A program made the position numbers and the translations under genes. 32,131 nucleotides of DNA from Gemmatimonadota bacterium (lineage in GTDB: Bacteria; Gemmatimonadota; Gemmatimonadetes; Gemmatimonadales; Gemmatimonadaceae), in assembly GCA_025362095.1 (NCBI GenBank), contig JANYIJ010000041.1, positions 1-32,131 on the forward strand, given 5' to 3'. Positions 7,324 to 23,748 of the stretch are shown here, piece by piece. Positions within the stretch are counted from its first letter, which is position 1. Every line of letters starts with the position of its first letter. Under the pieces are notes generated by a model. It ran no database searches, was not told the origin of the DNA, and worked only from the letters and a program-made list of their open reading frames with translations.

Positions 7324-10300
7324 CGGCGACTCCGATCGGGCTCCCCGCGGTGCGCTATCGCGTGCTTCCGCCTGAGCGCGCCGCGCGTGAAATGGAGGAG
7401 GAGCTGCTCGCGCGGTGGCAGAGTGAGGATCTCTTTCACCAGTCGCTCGCGGCCAGGGAAGGCGCGCCGGAGTTCGTGTTTTTCGAGGGACCGCCGACGG
7501 CAAACGGGCGGCCGGGAATCCATCACGTCTTCTCGCGAACGCTGAAAGATCTTTTCTGCCGCCATCGGGCGATGCGCGGATTTCACGTCTCGCGTAAAGC
7601 CGGATGGGACACGCACGGCCTGCCTGTGGAGATCGAAGTCGAGAAGGCGCTCGGCATCAGCGGCAAGCAGGACATCGAGAAGCTCGGTGTCGAGAAGTTC
7701 AACCAGCTCTGCCGCGAGAGCGTCTGGAAATATCGCGAAGAGTGGGAGAAGCTCAGCGCCCGCATGGGCTACTGGCTCGACTACGCGAACCCATACGTGA
7801 CGTATTCGAACGACTACGTCGAGAGCGTGTGGTGGGCGCTGAAAACACTCTACGACAAAACGCATTTGTATCAGGGTCACAAGATCCTGCCATATTGCCC
7901 GCGCTGCGGCACGTCGCTCTCCTCGCACGAGGTCGCGCAGGGCTACGAAGACACAGAAGATCCAAGTATTTATCTCGCGCTTGACCTTGAGGGACCGAAG
8001 ACCGAAGGACCGAAGACCGAAGTGGCGCGAAGGCGGATTGTCGTGTGGACGACGACTCCGTGGACGCTGCTCTCAAACGCCGCGCTGGCGGTGAATCCGG
8101 AGCTGAACTACATCGAGGTCCGCAAGAACGGCCGCACCGATTGGACGCTGCTGCTCGCCGACGCGCGCGCGATCGCGGTGCTCGGGCAGGAGTGGCGCTC
8201 CAAGTGGGAAATCGTCGCGACGTTCAAGGGCAGTGATCTCGCGGGGATGCGTTACAAGCGCCCGCTCGACTGGGTGCCTTACGCCGAGGGCGCGCACGAA
8301 ATAATCGTCGCCGAAGATTTCGTTTCGGCAGATGACGGCTCGGGCGTTGTGCACATGTCACCGGCGTTTGGCGCCGATGACTACACGGCGGGCAAGAAGC
8401 ACGGTCTCGCGTTCCTGCAGCCGGTGAACGCGCGTGGCGAATTCCCGGTAGACGTTCCGGTTGTCGGCGGAATGAAAGTGAAGGAAGCCGCGCCGCAGAT
8501 TATCGAAGAACTGAAAAGACGCGACGTGCTCTGGAAAGCGGGAACGGTGCACCATCCGTATCCGCACTGCTGGCGCTGCGGCACGCCGCTGCTGTACTAC
8601 GCGCGCGGTTCCTGGTTCGTGCGCACCTCGGCGTACAAAGACGAGATGATGGCGCGCAACGCCAACGTGAACTGGACGCCGCCCGACATGGGCACCGGCC
8701 GGTTCGGCATGTGGCTCGAGAACAACATCGACTGGGCGATCTCACGTGACCGCTACTGGGGCACACCGCTTCCGGTGTGGGTGAACGACGAGGATCCCGC
8801 CGAGATCGAAGTGATCGGAAGCTTCGCTGAGCTCGCGGCACGCGCAGGTCGCGCGCTGCCCGCGGATTTCGATCCGCACAAGCCGTTCATCGACGCGTAC
8901 ACGTGGCCGGCGAAGTCGGGCAAGGGGACGATGCGCCGCGTGAACGAAGTCATCGACGCCTGGTTCGACTCGGGTTCGATGTCGTTCGCGCAATGGCACT
9001 ATCCGTTCGAGAACGCGGAACTGTTCAAACGCCATTTCCCTGCGGATTTCATCGCCGAGGGCGTTGATCAGACGCGCGGGTGGTTCTACTCGCTGCTCGC
9101 GATCGCAACCGGGCTCGGCGACGCGCTCGGCGTGGCGACGCCGCCGGACGCGAAGGACGCACCTGCCTCGCCGTACCGAAACGTGGTCGTGAACGATCTC
9201 GTCCTCGATGCGAACGGGTTGAAAATGTCCAAGAGCCGCGGCAATACCGTCGAGCCGATGGCGGTGATGGAGCGGCATGGCGCAGACGCGGTGCGCCTGT
9301 TCCTTGTGACGGCGAGCCAGGTGTGGAAGCCGCGCGCATTCGACGAAGCGGTGATTCGTGGGACGGCGGGACGTTTTCTCGTGACGCTCAAGAATCTCTA
9401 CAGCGGAATGTTCGCCGAGCTCGCGAATCTCGGATGGGCGCCATCGCCGGCCGATCCTGCGCGCGAGAAGCGCCCCGCGTTCGACCGCTGGGTGCTCTCA
9501 CGGCTCGCGAATGTGGAGGCAGAGGCGAATCGTTTGCTCGAGGCCTTCGATGCAACGGGCGCAGCTCGAGTCGTGATGGAGTTCGTGGATGACGACGTCT
9601 CAAAGTGGTACGTGCGCCGTTCACGCGATCGCTTCTACGGCGTGCGCACTCCGGACAGCCGTGCCGCGTTCGCGACGCTGCACGAGGTGCTCGTCGCGAG
9701 CTGCAGACTGCTCGCGCCGTTCTCGCCGTTCGTAACGGACTGGATGCACCGCGAGCTCACGGGCGAGTCCGTGCACATCGCGCCATACATCCGCCCGGAT
9801 CCGTTCGCGCCGAAGCCGGAACTTGAAACTGCGATGCAGGAAATTCGCGCGCTCGCGACCCTGGGCCGCGCGGCGCGTGAGGCAGCGAAGGTCAATGTTC
9901 GGCAGCCGCTCGGACGCATGGTGTGCGTGCTGCCGGTGCATGGCACCGCGATCGACGCGCATGTGCAGGAACTCGTGCCGCTTCTCGCGGCCGAGCTCAA
10001 CGTGAAAGTGGTCGAATTCGCGTCGAGCGCAGATTCGCTGGTGTCGCTTGAGGCCAAGCCGAACTTCCGCGCCCTCGGCCAGCGATGGGGGAAAGAGACC
10101 CCTCGGGCCGCGGCCGCCGTTGCCGCGCTTTCATCGGAAACGCTGCGCGCGTTCGAGCGCGGCGAGCCCGTGATAATCGGGGTGGACGGCATCGATCACG
10201 AATTGACTGCGGATGAGGTTACCATTCATCGCCGCGCGAGCGGTCCGCTCGAAGTGCAGGAGGACGGTGCGCGTTTCGCCGCAATCGACACGACCGTGAC

Positions 10301-11531: not shown

Positions 11532-12483
11532 GGGGGACGACGCCGCGAGGCTGGATCTGCTCGTCGCGCGCCGTCTCGACCTCTCCCGTTCCCAGGCTGC
11601 CACACTCATCGCGAACGGCGCGGTGCTCGTGGACGGCAAGAAACAAAAGGCCAGCTTCAAGGCTGAGGACGGCGCCGAAGTAGCCGTCGAGCTCGCCGAG
11701 TCGAACGAGCGCACCGTCGAAGGTGAGAACATCCCGCTCTCGATCGTATTCGAAGACGACGAGCTCCTCGTGGTGGACAAACCCGCGGGCATGGTGGTGC
11801 ATCCTGCGCCCGGCAACTGGACCGGCACGCTCGTCAACGCGCTCAAAGGGCGCGGCCAGGCGCTGGCCGAGGGGAATACCGAGGAGCGCGCGGGACTCGT
11901 GCACCGTCTCGACAAAGACACGTCGGGTTTGATCGTCGTCGCGAAATCCGAGCGCACATTGCGAGCGCTGGGGAAGGCGATCACCGAGCGGCGCGTCGCG
12001 CGGCGATACGCGGTGCTGAGCTGGGGCCATGTCGAGAAAGAGATGATCACGGTCGACCGGCCGATTGCGCGCGATCCGAACGACCGCAAGCGCATGGCGA
12101 TCGCGCTCGCCGGACGCGCAGCGCGCACGGATTTCTACCGGCTCGCGCGATTCGACCAGACCGAACTTTTGCGTGCGCACTTGCATTCGGGTCGGACGCA
12201 TCAGATTCGCGTGCATCTTTCGTCGATCGGGCATCCTGTGGTTGGCGACGAGACATACGGCGGTGGTGGCGCCAGACGGTTGATGGGACTGCCGCCGAAG
12301 CGACACTTTCTCCATGCCGCTTGGCTGATGTTCAAACATCCGTTCAGCGGAGAACTGCTGGACTTCAGATCCAAGCTTCCAGCGGACTTGCACCAGTCGC
12401 TTATTGCAGCGTCGGAAATGGCCGAATTGATTGCCCACCCCGATCCGCTGGAGTACCTTGGCTTCTATAGAGTCGACGACTGA
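11503..12483 (+). CDS. rluD: RluA/RluD-family 23S rRNA pseudouridine synthase
   Basis: S4 domain LDLLVARRLDLSRSQAATLIANGAVLVDGK; LVHRLDKDTSGLIVVAKSE; HSGRTHQIRVHLSSIGHPVVGDETYGG. Confidence 0.92.
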   Translation: MDRTRRFRVEGDDAARLDLLVARRLDLSRSQAATLIANGAVLVDGKKQKASFKAEDGAEVAVELAESNERTVEGENIPLSIVFEDDELLVVDKPAGMVVHPAPGNWTGTLVNALKGRGQALAEGNTEERAGLVHRLDKDTSGLIVVAKSERTLRALGKAITERRVARRYAVLSWGHVEKEMITVDRPIARDPNDRKRMAIALAGRAARTDFYRLARFDQTELLRAHLHSGRTHQIRVHLSSIGHPVVGDETYGGGGARRLMGLPPKRHFLHAAWLMFKHPFSGELLDFRSKLPADLHQSLIAASEMAELIAHPDPLEYLGFYRVDD

Positions 12484-12919
12484 ATTACAGCTTCACCGCT
12501 TCCTCCTGTTCGGGGTGGCGGGGAGGTTGTGTGCCTGCGATTTGGACAGTGTCCGGGAAATAGTCCCGGCGCGCGCGGCCACGCGGTTGCCGGGGGCTCC
12601 GGATTGGGTGCGAGGGCTGATCAACCTGCGCGGAATGCTTGTTACGGTCGTCGATCTGGCGGTCCGGTTCGGGTCCGACGCCGCGGTCGAGAATTCGAAG
12701 TCGCTCATCGTGGTGGAGGCGTCTGGAAAGTCGCTTGGCATCGGCGTGGATGAAGTGCGCGACGTGCAGTCCGTTGCGGACGATGCGCTGGAGGAAGTCG
12801 ATGCGCTCCGCGCGGCTGGAGGGATCGTTCGCGGACTCGCGCATGTGGGAGCGTCGGGGGCGGAAACTGCGCTCGTCGTGGATGTGGGAGAGATCGTGAG
12901 GCAAGCGCTCGTGCTTTAA
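12431..12919 (+). CDS. cheW: CheW-like coupling protein (start uncertain; TTG 12431 or TTG 12458)
   Basis: HRFLLFGVAGRLCACDLDSVREIV; WVRGLINLRGMLVTVVDLAVRFG; LGIGVDEVRDVQSV. Confidence 0.85.
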   Translation: MPTPIRWSTLASIESTTELQLHRFLLFGVAGRLCACDLDSVREIVPARAATRLPGAPDWVRGLINLRGMLVTVVDLAVRFGSDAAVENSKSLIVVEASGKSLGIGVDEVRDVQSVADDALEEVDALRAAGGIVRGLAHVGASGAETALVVDVGEIVRQALVL

Positions 12920-13003
12920 GGCGACAGGCGACAGGCGACAGGCGACAGGCGACAGGCGACAGGCGACAGGCGACAGGCGACAGGCGACAGACGGCAGACG
13001 GCG
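12920..13003. repeat. Heptanucleotide tandem array (GGCGACA)10 plus two degenerate copies
   Basis: 10 exact 7-bp copies from 12920 to 12989, then GACGGCA GACGGCG. Confidence 0.98.
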
Positions 13004-13032
13004 GAGAAAAATCCTTTTTTCGAGAGGCACCG

Positions 13033-13395
13033 GTGGCTCCAACTGTGCTCATTTGCGATGACGCGATCTTCATGCGGACGATGGTCAGCGACATCCTGCA
13101 GCAAGCCGGCTTCGAGGTGGTTGGCGAGGCCGAGACCGGCGCCCAGGCTGTGGAGCGCTACAAGCAGCTTCGCCCGGATCTCGTGACGATGGACATCGTG
13201 ATGCCCGACATGGGCGGCATCGACGCGGTTCGCGAGATCACGAAGTTTGATCCGGACGCAAAAGTTCTGATGTGCAGCGCGATGGGACAGCAGGCGCTGG
13301 TCGTCGAGGCGATTCAGGCGGGAGCGAAGGATTTCGTGGTCAAGCCATTCCAGCCGAGCCGCGTGCTGGAGGCCGTTCAGCGCGTGCTCGGCTGA
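13033..13395 (+). CDS. cheY: CheY-like response regulator
   Basis: REC domain ICDDAIFMRTMVSDIL ... DLVTMDIVMPDMGGIDAV ... AGAKDFVVKPF; GTG start. Confidence 0.93.
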   Translation: MAPTVLICDDAIFMRTMVSDILQQAGFEVVGEAETGAQAVERYKQLRPDLVTMDIVMPDMGGIDAVREITKFDPDAKVLMCSAMGQQALVVEAIQAGAKDFVVKPFQPSRVLEAVQRVLG

Positions 13396-13435: not shown

Positions 13436-15121
13436 ATGAAGCTCGATCCGCAGCGATACGCCGAGCTGTTTCGCACCGAGAGCCGCGAACAGCTGTCGGC
13501 CATCAATCGTGCGTTGCTACTGCTCGAAGAGGGCGGCGATCCGTCTGAGCCGGTGAGCGTGGTGTTCCGCGCCGTGCACACGATCAAAGGCATGAGCGCG
13601 ACGATGGGCTATCACGCGGTGGCAGAGTTCTCGCATGAGCTCGAGTCCGTGCTCGATCGCGTGCGGCGCGGCGATCAAACGCTCGCGCCCGACCTGATGG
13701 ACGCGCTGTTCGCATCCGCCGACGCGCTGGAGACCGCGGTAGATGACGCGTCGGAGCAGGCGGCGCAGACGCCCGCGATGATCGCAGCGCTGCAGCGACT
13801 GCGCGATGTGGCGGGCGGCTCGGCCACGAGTGAGTTTCCCGCGATGCAGATGCCGGAAGGCGGCGTATTCGACGAGTCGCCGGCGCCACGGCGCGCGGGA
13901 CACGAGCCGCGCACGACGCTCGAACTCGTCGCCGCTGCCGACGAAGTCACGCGGCCGGGCGCGCGTCCCACGCGCCATGTGCGCGTGGATCTCGGCCGGC
14001 TCGACGCGCTGATGAATCTCATCGGCGAACTCGTGATCACGCGCGGCCGCCTGTTGCAGCTCACCGCGACCAGTCCCGATCCTGCGCTCGACGAGGCCAT
14101 GCAAATGGCGGCGCGCCTCGTGTCGGACCTGCAGGCGGAAATCATGACGATGCGCATGGTGCCCGTGTGGCAGGTGTTCGACCGCTTCCCGCGCCTCGTG
14201 CGCGACGCGGCGCGCCAGCAGGGGAAGGACGTGCACTTCGTGGTCGAGGGAAAAGAGATCGAACTCGACCGTTCGCTCCTCGACGAAATCGGCGAGCCGA
14301 TCGTGCACCTGCTGCGAAACTCCATTGGTCACGGCATCGAAACACCGGAAGTGCGCGAGGCCGCAGGAAAGCCGCGCGAGGGCCGGCTCGTGCTCAGCGC
14401 CGCGCGCGATCGCGCGGCCGTGCTGATCCGCGTGAGCGACGACGGACGCGGCATCGATCGCGACCGCGTGCTCGAGCGCGCGCACAGGCTCGGACTCGTG
14501 GACGAGAGCGTAAAGGAGCTCGACGACGCGGCGCTCTTCAAGGTGATCGCGACGCCCGGATTCTCCACCGTCGAAACAGTGTCGGATCTCTCCGGGCGCG
14601 GTGTGGGAATCGACGCGGTCCAGGCGAAGGCGCGCGCGCTCGGCGGATCGGTCGAGCTGATCACGATGCGCGGCGAGGGCACGACGATCACGGTGCGGCT
14701 GCCGGTGACGCTGGCGATCGTGCGCGCGCTGCTCGCGCGATCGGGAGTGGAGCGTTACGCGCTGCCGCTCACGCACGTGCGCGAGACGCTCGAATACGAT
14801 CGCGACGTGGTGCAGTTCGTGAAGGGAAAGCCGGTGCTGGTGCTGCGCGATGAAGTGCTGCCGCTGCTCGATCTGCGCGACGTCGTGCGACAGCGGCCGG
14901 CGGATGACACGCCCGGCGCGCACCGCGAGATCGTCGTGATCGAGCGCGGCGCGCGGCGCTCCGGGCTCGTGGTCGACGAGCTCATCGGTCAGCAGGATAT
15001 CGTGGTGAAACAGTTCGACGCGGCACGCGACGCGCTCGCGCTCTTCAGCGGCGCGACGATTCTCTCCGATGGCGCTCCGGCACTGATCATGGACGTGGGC
15101 AGTCTCTTCGAGGGGAGCTGA
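13436..15121 (+). CDS. cheA: Chemotaxis histidine kinase CheA
   Basis: Hpt FRAVHTIKGMSATMG; dimerisation VRVDLGRLDALMNLIGELVITRGRL; HATPase HLLRNSIGHGIE...VSDDGRGID; C-terminal CheW domain. Confidence 0.95.
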   Translation: MKLDPQRYAELFRTESREQLSAINRALLLLEEGGDPSEPVSVVFRAVHTIKGMSATMGYHAVAEFSHELESVLDRVRRGDQTLAPDLMDALFASADALETAVDDASEQAAQTPAMIAALQRLRDVAGGSATSEFPAMQMPEGGVFDESPAPRRAGHEPRTTLELVAAADEVTRPGARPTRHVRVDLGRLDALMNLIGELVITRGRLLQLTATSPDPALDEAMQMAARLVSDLQAEIMTMRMVPVWQVFDRFPRLVRDAARQQGKDVHFVVEGKEIELDRSLLDEIGEPIVHLLRNSIGHGIETPEVREAAGKPREGRLVLSAARDRAAVLIRVSDDGRGIDRDRVLERAHRLGLVDESVKELDDAALFKVIATPGFSTVETVSDLSGRGVGIDAVQAKARALGGSVELITMRGEGTTITVRLPVTLAIVRALLARSGVERYALPLTHVRETLEYDRDVVQFVKGKPVLVLRDEVLPLLDLRDVVRQRPADDTPGAHREIVVIERGARRSGLVVDELIGQQDIVVKQFDAARDALALFSGATILSDGAPALIMDVGSLFEGS

Positions 15122-21840: not shown

Positions 21841-23748
21841 GTGCAGCTCGATTCGCGGCTCCGGTTCGACAGTCTCGTCGTGGGCGCGGGAAACCGCCTC
21901 GGGGTGGCCGCCGCGCGCGCCGTGGCCGAGTCGCCGGGCGCCGTGTACAACCCGCTGTTCATCTACGGCGGCACCGGACTCGGGAAGACGCACCTGCTGT
22001 GCTCTGTGGGGCATCTCGCCGCGGCGCTGCAGCCGCAGCTCGAGATCGAATATCTCTCGCTCGATGAATTCGTTGAGCAGCTGCACGCGTCGGTGAGCGC
22101 GGGACAGATGGACGCATTCTCACGCCGCTATGAGCGCGTGGGACTGCTGTTGATCGACGACGTGCAGTTTCTCACCGGTCGCCGCGAGACGCAGGCCGAA
22201 CTCCTGCGGCTGTTCGAGCGCATGCAGACCGCCGGCGGGCAGATCGTGCTCACGAGCGACCGGCCTCCGGCGGAGATTCCGGACGTCGACGAGCGATTGA
22301 TCAGCCGTCTCTCCGGCGGATTGATCGTCGATGTCACGGCGCCGGACTACGAAACGCGCGTCGCGATTCTCCGCGCGAACTGCGAAGAGCGGCAGCTCGA
22401 ATTCAAGAGCGGCGTGCTTGAAGAACTCGCGCGCTTCAACTTCAACAACGTGCGCGCGCTGCAGGGCGCGCTCAATCGCCTCGTCGCGGCGAAGGCCGTG
22501 ACCGCCGAAGAAGAAGTAAAACCCGAACCTCCGAGGACTCCCGCGCGGCCGACACCCGCGGAGCGGCCCACGGGTGAGTTTGAGAGTTTTCTTTCCGAAG
22601 TCACCACGGTGGTGCAGCAGCAGGTGGAATCGTGGCAGGCGCGGCTTCGCGAGGCGGTCGCGTACTGGAACGGCGAGGGATATCGCACCGCCGTGCTGGA
22701 GCGCGCGCTCACGCTCACCAAGGCGCCGGATGTCGCGGGGCTGCTCGCGACGTTCACCGCGGCGGTCGAACATCTGCGCGATCTCGAGCAGAAAGCGGTG
22801 GAAGTGGATCGTGCACTCGGGAGCGATCCTGTATTCCGCGATCCGGAGCGCATGGCGGCGGCTGAAGATCTCGTCGAGCGCGCGCTCGCCGGAGAAACGC
22901 CCCCCGGCGGCCCGAGCCCTGCGTTTGCGCGCGCCGCGTTCGAGGTCGGCACGTCGAACCAGCTCGCGGTGCACGCGGCCGACGCCGTTATTGCATCGCC
23001 GGGTGTGAAATACAATCCGCTGCTGATCCACGGCGCGAGCGGCGTGGGGAAGACGCATTTGCTGCACGCGATCGGCAACGCGCTCGTGCAGGCGCGCGGT
23101 TCACGCCTGGTGGTCGCGTGCGTCCACGCGCAGCAGTTCATCGACGAACTCATCGCGTCGATTCAGGGCGGCACGATCGAACGCTGGCGCGCGCGCTACC
23201 GCTCGGTCGATGCGCTGATGATCGACGACGTGCATTTTGTCGCCGACAAAGAGCGGACGCAGGAGGAGCTGTTCCTGCTTTTCAACGAAATCGTCGGAGC
23301 GGGGAAGCAGGTCGTGCTCACCAGCGATCAGCCGCCCGCCGCGATTCCCGATCTCGAAGCGCGGCTCCGTTCGCGATTCGAAGGCGGGCTCGTCGTGCCG
23401 ATTCAGGCGCCCGATCGCGCGCTGCGCGAAAAACTGTTCGCGCGATTCCTTTCCGCGGCGGGGCGAGAGTCCGATGCGCATCTGCTGACGCTGCTCGGGC
23501 AGCAGCCGGTGCAGAGTGTGCGCGAAATTATCGGCGTCGTGAATCGTCTCGGCGCTGCCGCGCATGCCGCGGGCGCACCGCTCGACGCGAAGCTCGTGCG
23601 CCGCGAACTCGGCGCGGTGACGCCGTACGCCGGCGTGCCCGTGGTGACGCAGGCCAATGACGCCCGCGACCCCGCGTTCATGGACGCGGAAAAAATCGTG
23701 TGGGACTGGCCTGAAGTCGGATCGCGCATCATCGAGGAGTTTCGCTGA
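21841..23748 (+). CDS. Tandem double DnaA-type AAA+ ATPase (635 aa) lacking DnaA domain IV
   Basis: Module 1: YNPLFIYGGTGLGKTHL, LLLIDDVQFLTGR, IVLTSDRPP, NVRALQGALNRL; module 2: YNPLLIHGASGVGKTHLLHAIGN, ALMIDDVHFVADK, VVLTSDQPP, SVREIIGVVNRL; no DHTTVxHA-type domain IV. Confidence 0.93.
   Translation: MQLDSRLRFDSLVVGAGNRLGVAAARAVAESPGAVYNPLFIYGGTGLGKTHLLCSVGHLAAALQPQLEIEYLSLDEFVEQLHASVSAGQMDAFSRRYERVGLLLIDDVQFLTGRRETQAELLRLFERMQTAGGQIVLTSDRPPAEIPDVDERLISRLSGGLIVDVTAPDYETRVAILRANCEERQLEFKSGVLEELARFNFNNVRALQGALNRLVAAKAVTAEEEVKPEPPRTPARPTPAERPTGEFESFLSEVTTVVQQQVESWQARLREAVAYWNGEGYRTAVLERALTLTKAPDVAGLLATFTAAVEHLRDLEQKAVEVDRALGSDPVFRDPERMAAAEDLVERALAGETPPGGPSPAFARAAFEVGTSNQLAVHAADAVIASPGVKYNPLLIHGASGVGKTHLLHAIGNALVQARGSRLVVACVHAQQFIDELIASIQGGTIERWRARYRSVDALMIDDVHFVADKERTQEELFLLFNEIVGAGKQVVLTSDQPPAAIPDLEARLRSRFEGGLVVPIQAPDRALREKLFARFLSAAGRESDAHLLTLLGQQPVQSVREIIGVVNRLGAAAHAAGAPLDAKLVRRELGAVTPYAGVPVVTQANDARDPAFMDAEKIVWDWPEVGSRIIEEFR

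Follow-up and report, generated by a model that had tools for sequence, protein, structure and literature searches.

The window, i.e. the whole 32,131-nt stretch of DNA that was analysed, carries three chemotaxis genes in a row on its plus strand, cheW (12431-12919), cheY (13033-13395) and cheA (13436-15121), with an array of heptanucleotides between the first two. The identities assigned to these genes in the first-pass annotation were borne out by Pfam matches. cheW matched the CheW family (PF01584, E 1.7e-29), cheY is a single receiver domain read from a GTG start (PF00072, E 1.1e-31), and cheA, the next gene on the same strand, has Hpt, H-kinase_dim, HATPase_c and CheW domains. For cheW, position 12431 is a TTG assigned mechanically as the start of the reading frame, and the true start probably lies farther downstream. 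Minus-strand reading frames across the array were set aside because the well-conserved cheW, cheY and cheA occupy the opposite strand. The relatives of CheA in named genomes were Gemmatimonadota MAGs except for three Firmicutes at 42-43% identity. Elsewhere in the window, positions 21841-23748 seem to encode a protein with two ATPase regions; it gave matches to Bac_DnaA and to an IstB-type ATPase in two stretches each.

The stop codon TAA of cheW (12917-12919) directly abuts a perfect array (GGCGACA)10 at 12920-12989, whose purine-rich strand is the sense strand of the che operon. Two degenerate period-7 units follow, GACGGCA (12990-12996) and GACGGCG (12997-13003), and then, ahead of the cheY GTG, GAGAAAAATCCTTTTTT... 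The ten identical units directly after the TAA and the two degenerate ones had been described in this way from the letters alone, and the sequence agrees. The letters given for the stretch after the array were also right, save that the reading GGAGAAAAATCC repeated the final G of the second degenerate unit, a trivial slip. The residual spacer of 29 nt (13004-13032) separates the array from the cheY GTG and holds GAGAGG at 13022-13027, the probable Shine-Dalgarno sequence of cheY, which begins 18 nt past the last degenerate unit. Another array of the genome (L007/C189) is closed by the similar end GACAGACGGCGG.

Tandem Repeats Finder reported 10.3 copies with 100% match and a score of 144 at 12919-12990, the top array of the window. 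The 14-mer GGCGACAGGCGACA occurred nine times in the window, always within the cheW-cheY array, compared to 0.00 in 100 shuffles. By both measures the tandem 7-bp units at cheW-cheY are well above chance. The exact copy number comes from the assembly of one fragmented Gemmatimonadota MAG (2.99 Mb in 253 contigs), in which the array may have been collapsed or may represent the consensus of a population. A second heptamer run, of the GACCGAA family, is located on the plus strand at 7993-8022, in frame inside ileS, where it encodes 10 residues; at this variable site the loop of the nearest relatives is shorter and unrelated.

No heptamer array was present at the cheW-cheY junction in any of 21 further Gemmatimonadota loci, nor at that of the same-genus genomes in which both genes were found, a set that partly overlaps in genomes with the former. 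In the two nearest species CheW was 82.7% and CheY 100% identical, and the cheW-cheY gap was 32 nt vs 113 nt here; their junction, TAGGACTCGATCACTCTTTC..., measured 35 nt including the stop codon vs 116 nt in the array genome. The cheW stop is at the same place in these nearest relatives and therefore was not created by the array, and the GTG start of cheY is conserved in them as well. The spacer sequence TCCTTTTTCG, kept in more distant members of the genus, is similar to TCCTTTTTTCG after the array, which also resembles the spacer of the relatives L087 and L088. The simplest reading of this comparison would be that this lineage acquired the array immediately past the stop while retaining the part of the spacer next to cheY. 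Because the array is absent from the nearest species, the comparison supports the view that it is evolutionarily labile. A conserved cheY leader or riboswitch was ruled out by the absence of the array in all relatives and of any Rfam match at the cheW-cheY spacer.

A wider search for GGCGACA, put forward as a check in the first-pass annotation, returned dimers at six places in the genome, the cheW-cheY array included. Related units of the RRCAG type (CAAACAG, CAGACAG, GGCAACA and GACGGCA) were found at further places, several of them at contig ends, where heptamer arrays probably broke the assembly. The unit families of the source genome comprised GGCGACA, GGCAACR, CAAACAG, GACCGAA and GCCGGAA. 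The RRCAG pattern selects for its own core, and its control counts were inflated since CAGACAG is nearly the same when read backwards; we therefore gave weight to period scans that presuppose no particular unit. Across 949 kb of the source genome, about a third of it and including some contigs chosen for their repeats, period 7 was the commonest period among Tandem Repeats Finder arrays of at least three copies. A recount on 65 contigs picked without regard to repeats (732 kb) yielded 23 period-7 segments vs none for periods 5, 8 and 13, three for period 10 and five for period 11. Apart from the harmonic 14, multiples of three were the only periods to approach period 7. Shuffled sequence gave no period-7 segment at a stricter threshold. 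Period 7 is over-represented genome-wide in the source genome, and the cheW-cheY array is one recent member of this genome-wide set of heptamer repeats. The same genome contains a G-rich heptamer family, GGTGAGG/GGGTGAG (L142 10051-10118, L132 7082-7133). A degenerate GGCGACA-type run lies in the dnaG frame at a contig end (L155 4293-4330, contig C46; also in L001 near the end), and the dnaG-region match in genome G011 has no array of this type.

The arrays recur in one layout, with the purine-rich strand in gene sense and a start right at a stop codon or no more than about 10 nt from it. Using gene calls from a simple hexamer model made for this analysis, 9 of 10 arrays in the sense of their neighbour began within 10 nt of a stop in the source genome (null 5.2, P 0.016) as did 2 of 10 antisense arrays (null 5.3, P 0.027), a test that is weakened by short spacers. 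In such spacers the stop anchoring is due in part to the need to spare the ribosome-binding site of the next gene. That all arrays of this genome are sense-oriented was rejected, as overall orientation was even (10 vs 10); what depended on orientation was the stop anchoring alone. The layout recurred in G057, a genome from another family of the order with the unit GATGACA. Here 24 of 28 arrays were within 10 nt of a stop, against an average of 3.4 under random placement, which never exceeded 10 in any of 5000 draws. Part of this overlap stems, however, from the TGA within GATGACA, at which any gene entering the array must stop. None of 25 antisense arrays of G057 was that close.

Convergent genes in G057 usually had an inverted pair of arrays between them, placed around a terminator-like stem or the palindrome TGTCATCCTGAG...CTCAGGATGACA. 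The end of this palindrome equals the array unit GATGACA. The source genome had this arrangement at a few places, e.g. L142 6720-6859, L141 4058/4132 and L170 3664/3775. At L238, L240, L247 and L253 of G057 the palindromic repeat TGTCATCCTGAGC...GCTCAGGATGACA was seen between inverted (GATGACA)n arrays; its end equals the array unit, and for this reason it may have seeded the arrays. Viral contigs of IMG/VR contained GGCGACA/TGTCGCC arrays by terminator-like stems (L275 10261-10288, L278 178-205, L276 14470-14668); the sequence around the array appeared to be near-identical in L275 and L278.

The repeat units differed between species. The GAYSGAR trimer pattern matched 40 times in the source genome, 222 times in G009, 69 times in G011 and 9 times in G014, with one match or none in each of 14 other genomes of the genus. 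Among the matches listed for the sister species the unit was mostly GATGGAA or GATCGAA, while the contigs read from the source genome had GACCGAA or GACCGAG. Two sites were shared with a unit differing between species (L123 5098 vs L209 13792; L155 2476 vs L206 3072), and other compared sites had an array in one species only. The GGCRACR type was patchy: among 99 genomes of the family it occurred in six, each from a different genus. Of 121 genomes sampled from the phylum as a whole, two had exact GGCGACA trimers. GGCGACA was found patchily in other genera (G020, G033, G068, G184). Dimers of it were absent from 17 same-genus genomes, which ruled out a unit inherited genus-wide.

It had been proposed that a variable copy number alters mRNA structure or spacing and thus phase-varies or tunes the expression of cheY and cheA. 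A perfect short tandem array in intercistronic mRNA is in line with such a switch, and copy-dependent expression from a tetranucleotide array in the 5' UTR of Moraxella UspA2 is outlined in PMC4679880. Yet the array lies outside the reading frames of cheW and cheY, no frame effect is possible, and cheY has kept its own GAGAGG. RNA folding of one segment, a weak test, predicted that opening the start region of cheY costs 9.3 kcal/mol with 10 copies and 8.5-10.1 kcal/mol over 0 to 30 copies, with little change per unit near 10; three array-less relatives gave 11.4-13.3 kcal/mol. Tuning by structure was rejected as unlikely on this flat predicted accessibility. Likewise, no promoter-like site was found at the cheW-cheY spacer. 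It had been suggested that the A/T-rich tail could add attenuation, which was not borne out: terminator-like sites, defined as a G+C-rich stem followed by a T run, numbered zero with the tail included, and on this ground an intrinsic attenuator was rejected. The tail gave no Rfam match either. Furthermore, the same repeat class follows unrelated genes, relatives with the same operon do without the array, and Rehm et al. judged a role in phase variation unlikely for comparable heptamers of Xanthomonas and Nostoc (PMC4692102). We consider a slippage-driven switch of cheY and cheA improbable, and by these predictions the array does not appear to fit a phase-variable locus, where a change in the number of copies acts on frame, promoter spacing or translation. 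Because arrays of the same kind lie behind many unrelated genes, it is not a chemotaxis-specific device. The longer spacer could mildly affect the coupling of cheW and cheY.

Another explanation is that post-stop sense arrays act as functional elements in 3'-end formation, mRNA stability or intercistronic decoupling, e.g. as protein-binding sites or, where two arrays are paired in inverted orientation, as a slip-tolerant hairpin around a terminator. Stop anchoring with sense orientation, strong in G057 and weaker in the source genome, argues for it, as do the inverted arrays flanking terminator-like stems in both genomes and the GGCGACA arrays abutting such a stem in viral contigs. On the other hand, the units are wholly different between lineages and turn over, most genes have no array, some arrays reside inside coding sequences, and the cheW array has neither an inverted partner nor a terminator. 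As an account of the cheW array we regard this as unlikely. For the heptamer population as a whole a role in mRNA 3' ends is possible, because strand dependence and stop anchoring of the grade seen in G057 exceed what plain neutrality predicts. Somewhat less doubtful, but still a minority view, is that the cheW array was planted by copying from locus to locus, via gene conversion or repeat seeding, and was not born in place; its ten flawless copies could reflect a recent event of this kind. The C189 and cheW arrays share units and a similar terminal module, the unit of G057 matches the end of its palindromic repeat, and shared sites carry species-specific sets of units. Yet the terminal module is common to only two arrays, neither a mobile gene nor a conserved flank was seen at the cheW site, and convergent slippage of similar seeds can also yield similar units. 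Finally, contigs of this fragmented MAG end in other heptamer arrays, as an assembly artefact might lead one to expect. But the perfect array of 70 bp is shorter than the contig-ending ones and sits mid-contig (32 kb) between intact genes, and the assemblies of several other Gemmatimonadota also resolve arrays of the same kind, which makes an artefact highly improbable.

We favor as the probable explanation that the array belongs to the genome-wide heptamer population as a young member specific to this species, grown by slippage and most likely near-neutral for chemotaxis. A heptamer tract would have arisen in the ribosome-free spacer directly past the cheW stop, a stretch that may serve as a permissive niche, and replication slippage would have extended it to ten identical units. 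The cheW-cheY gap would have lengthened from about 32 to 113 nt with the ribosome-binding region of cheY intact. The consequence for chemotaxis would most likely be near-neutral, with the array acting at most as a mild intercistronic spacer.

The comparison of the array to the slippage-prone heptanucleotide simple-sequence repeats of cyanobacteria, made in the first-pass annotation, was supported. As described in PMC4692102 and general background, the repeats of Calothrix and other cyanobacteria share the period of 7 and the intergenic tandem arrangement; units and phylum are different, and the likeness is one of description, not of sequence. The 2007 survey of long simple-sequence repeats, as summarized in PMC4679880 and PMC4692102, found that in most repeat-rich genomes heptanucleotides outnumber every other class, and proposed polymerase slippage; these summaries mention neither Gemmatimonadota nor anchoring at stop codons. 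MacGregor 2015 (PMC4679880) reported TAACTGA direct repeats in marine Beggiatoaceae, Cyanobacteria and Bacteroidetes, which resemble the present arrays as tandem heptamers that are strand-oriented to genes, lineage-specific and missing in some relatives. They number 2-6 copies in the main genome and mostly lie just upstream of start codons, overlapping the expected Shine-Dalgarno sequence. In contrast, the cheW array adjoins the upstream stop, is not start-proximal and leaves the Shine-Dalgarno-like GAGAGG free.

The closest likeness is to the GGGAATC and GGGGA(C/T)T heptamers of Xanthomonas and Nostoc described by Rehm et al. 2015 (PMC4692102). Those are also genome-wide, mostly intergenic and not tied to phase-variable functions, and they show the same stop-proximal layout, with inverted pairs between convergent genes; the cheW array abuts the TAA as they do. 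Unlike them, GGCGACA lacks a GGG run, which excludes a quadruplex with three tetrads; one with two tetrads is the most it could form. Moreover, most Xanthomonas sites are conserved between species (PMC4692102), whereas the cheW site is not. A literature search of incomplete coverage returned no description of the heptamer layout in Gemmatimonadota. Because this layout had already been reported by Rehm et al. in Xanthomonas and Nostoc, the present case adds a further example to a kind that is known, though unexplained.

The units differ between lineages: GACCGAA occurs in one species, its sisters have GATGGAA/GATCGAA, and another family has GATGACA. Tentatively, and with more doubt than confidence, one may propose that in heptamer-rich Gemmatimonadota the stop-anchored sense position is kept genome-wide while the unit is replaced species-wide in a concerted manner. 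If so, a process would seed or convert arrays at transcript ends, perhaps in the R-loop-prone, ribosome-free RNA just past the stop codon. Attention is drawn away from a presumed switch of chemotaxis and towards a general property of some bacterial genomes, sense-oriented 7-bp arrays at stop codons. That this property, earlier described in Xanthomonas and Nostoc, recurs with different units in two families of Gemmatimonadota suggests a common mechanism acting where transcripts end.
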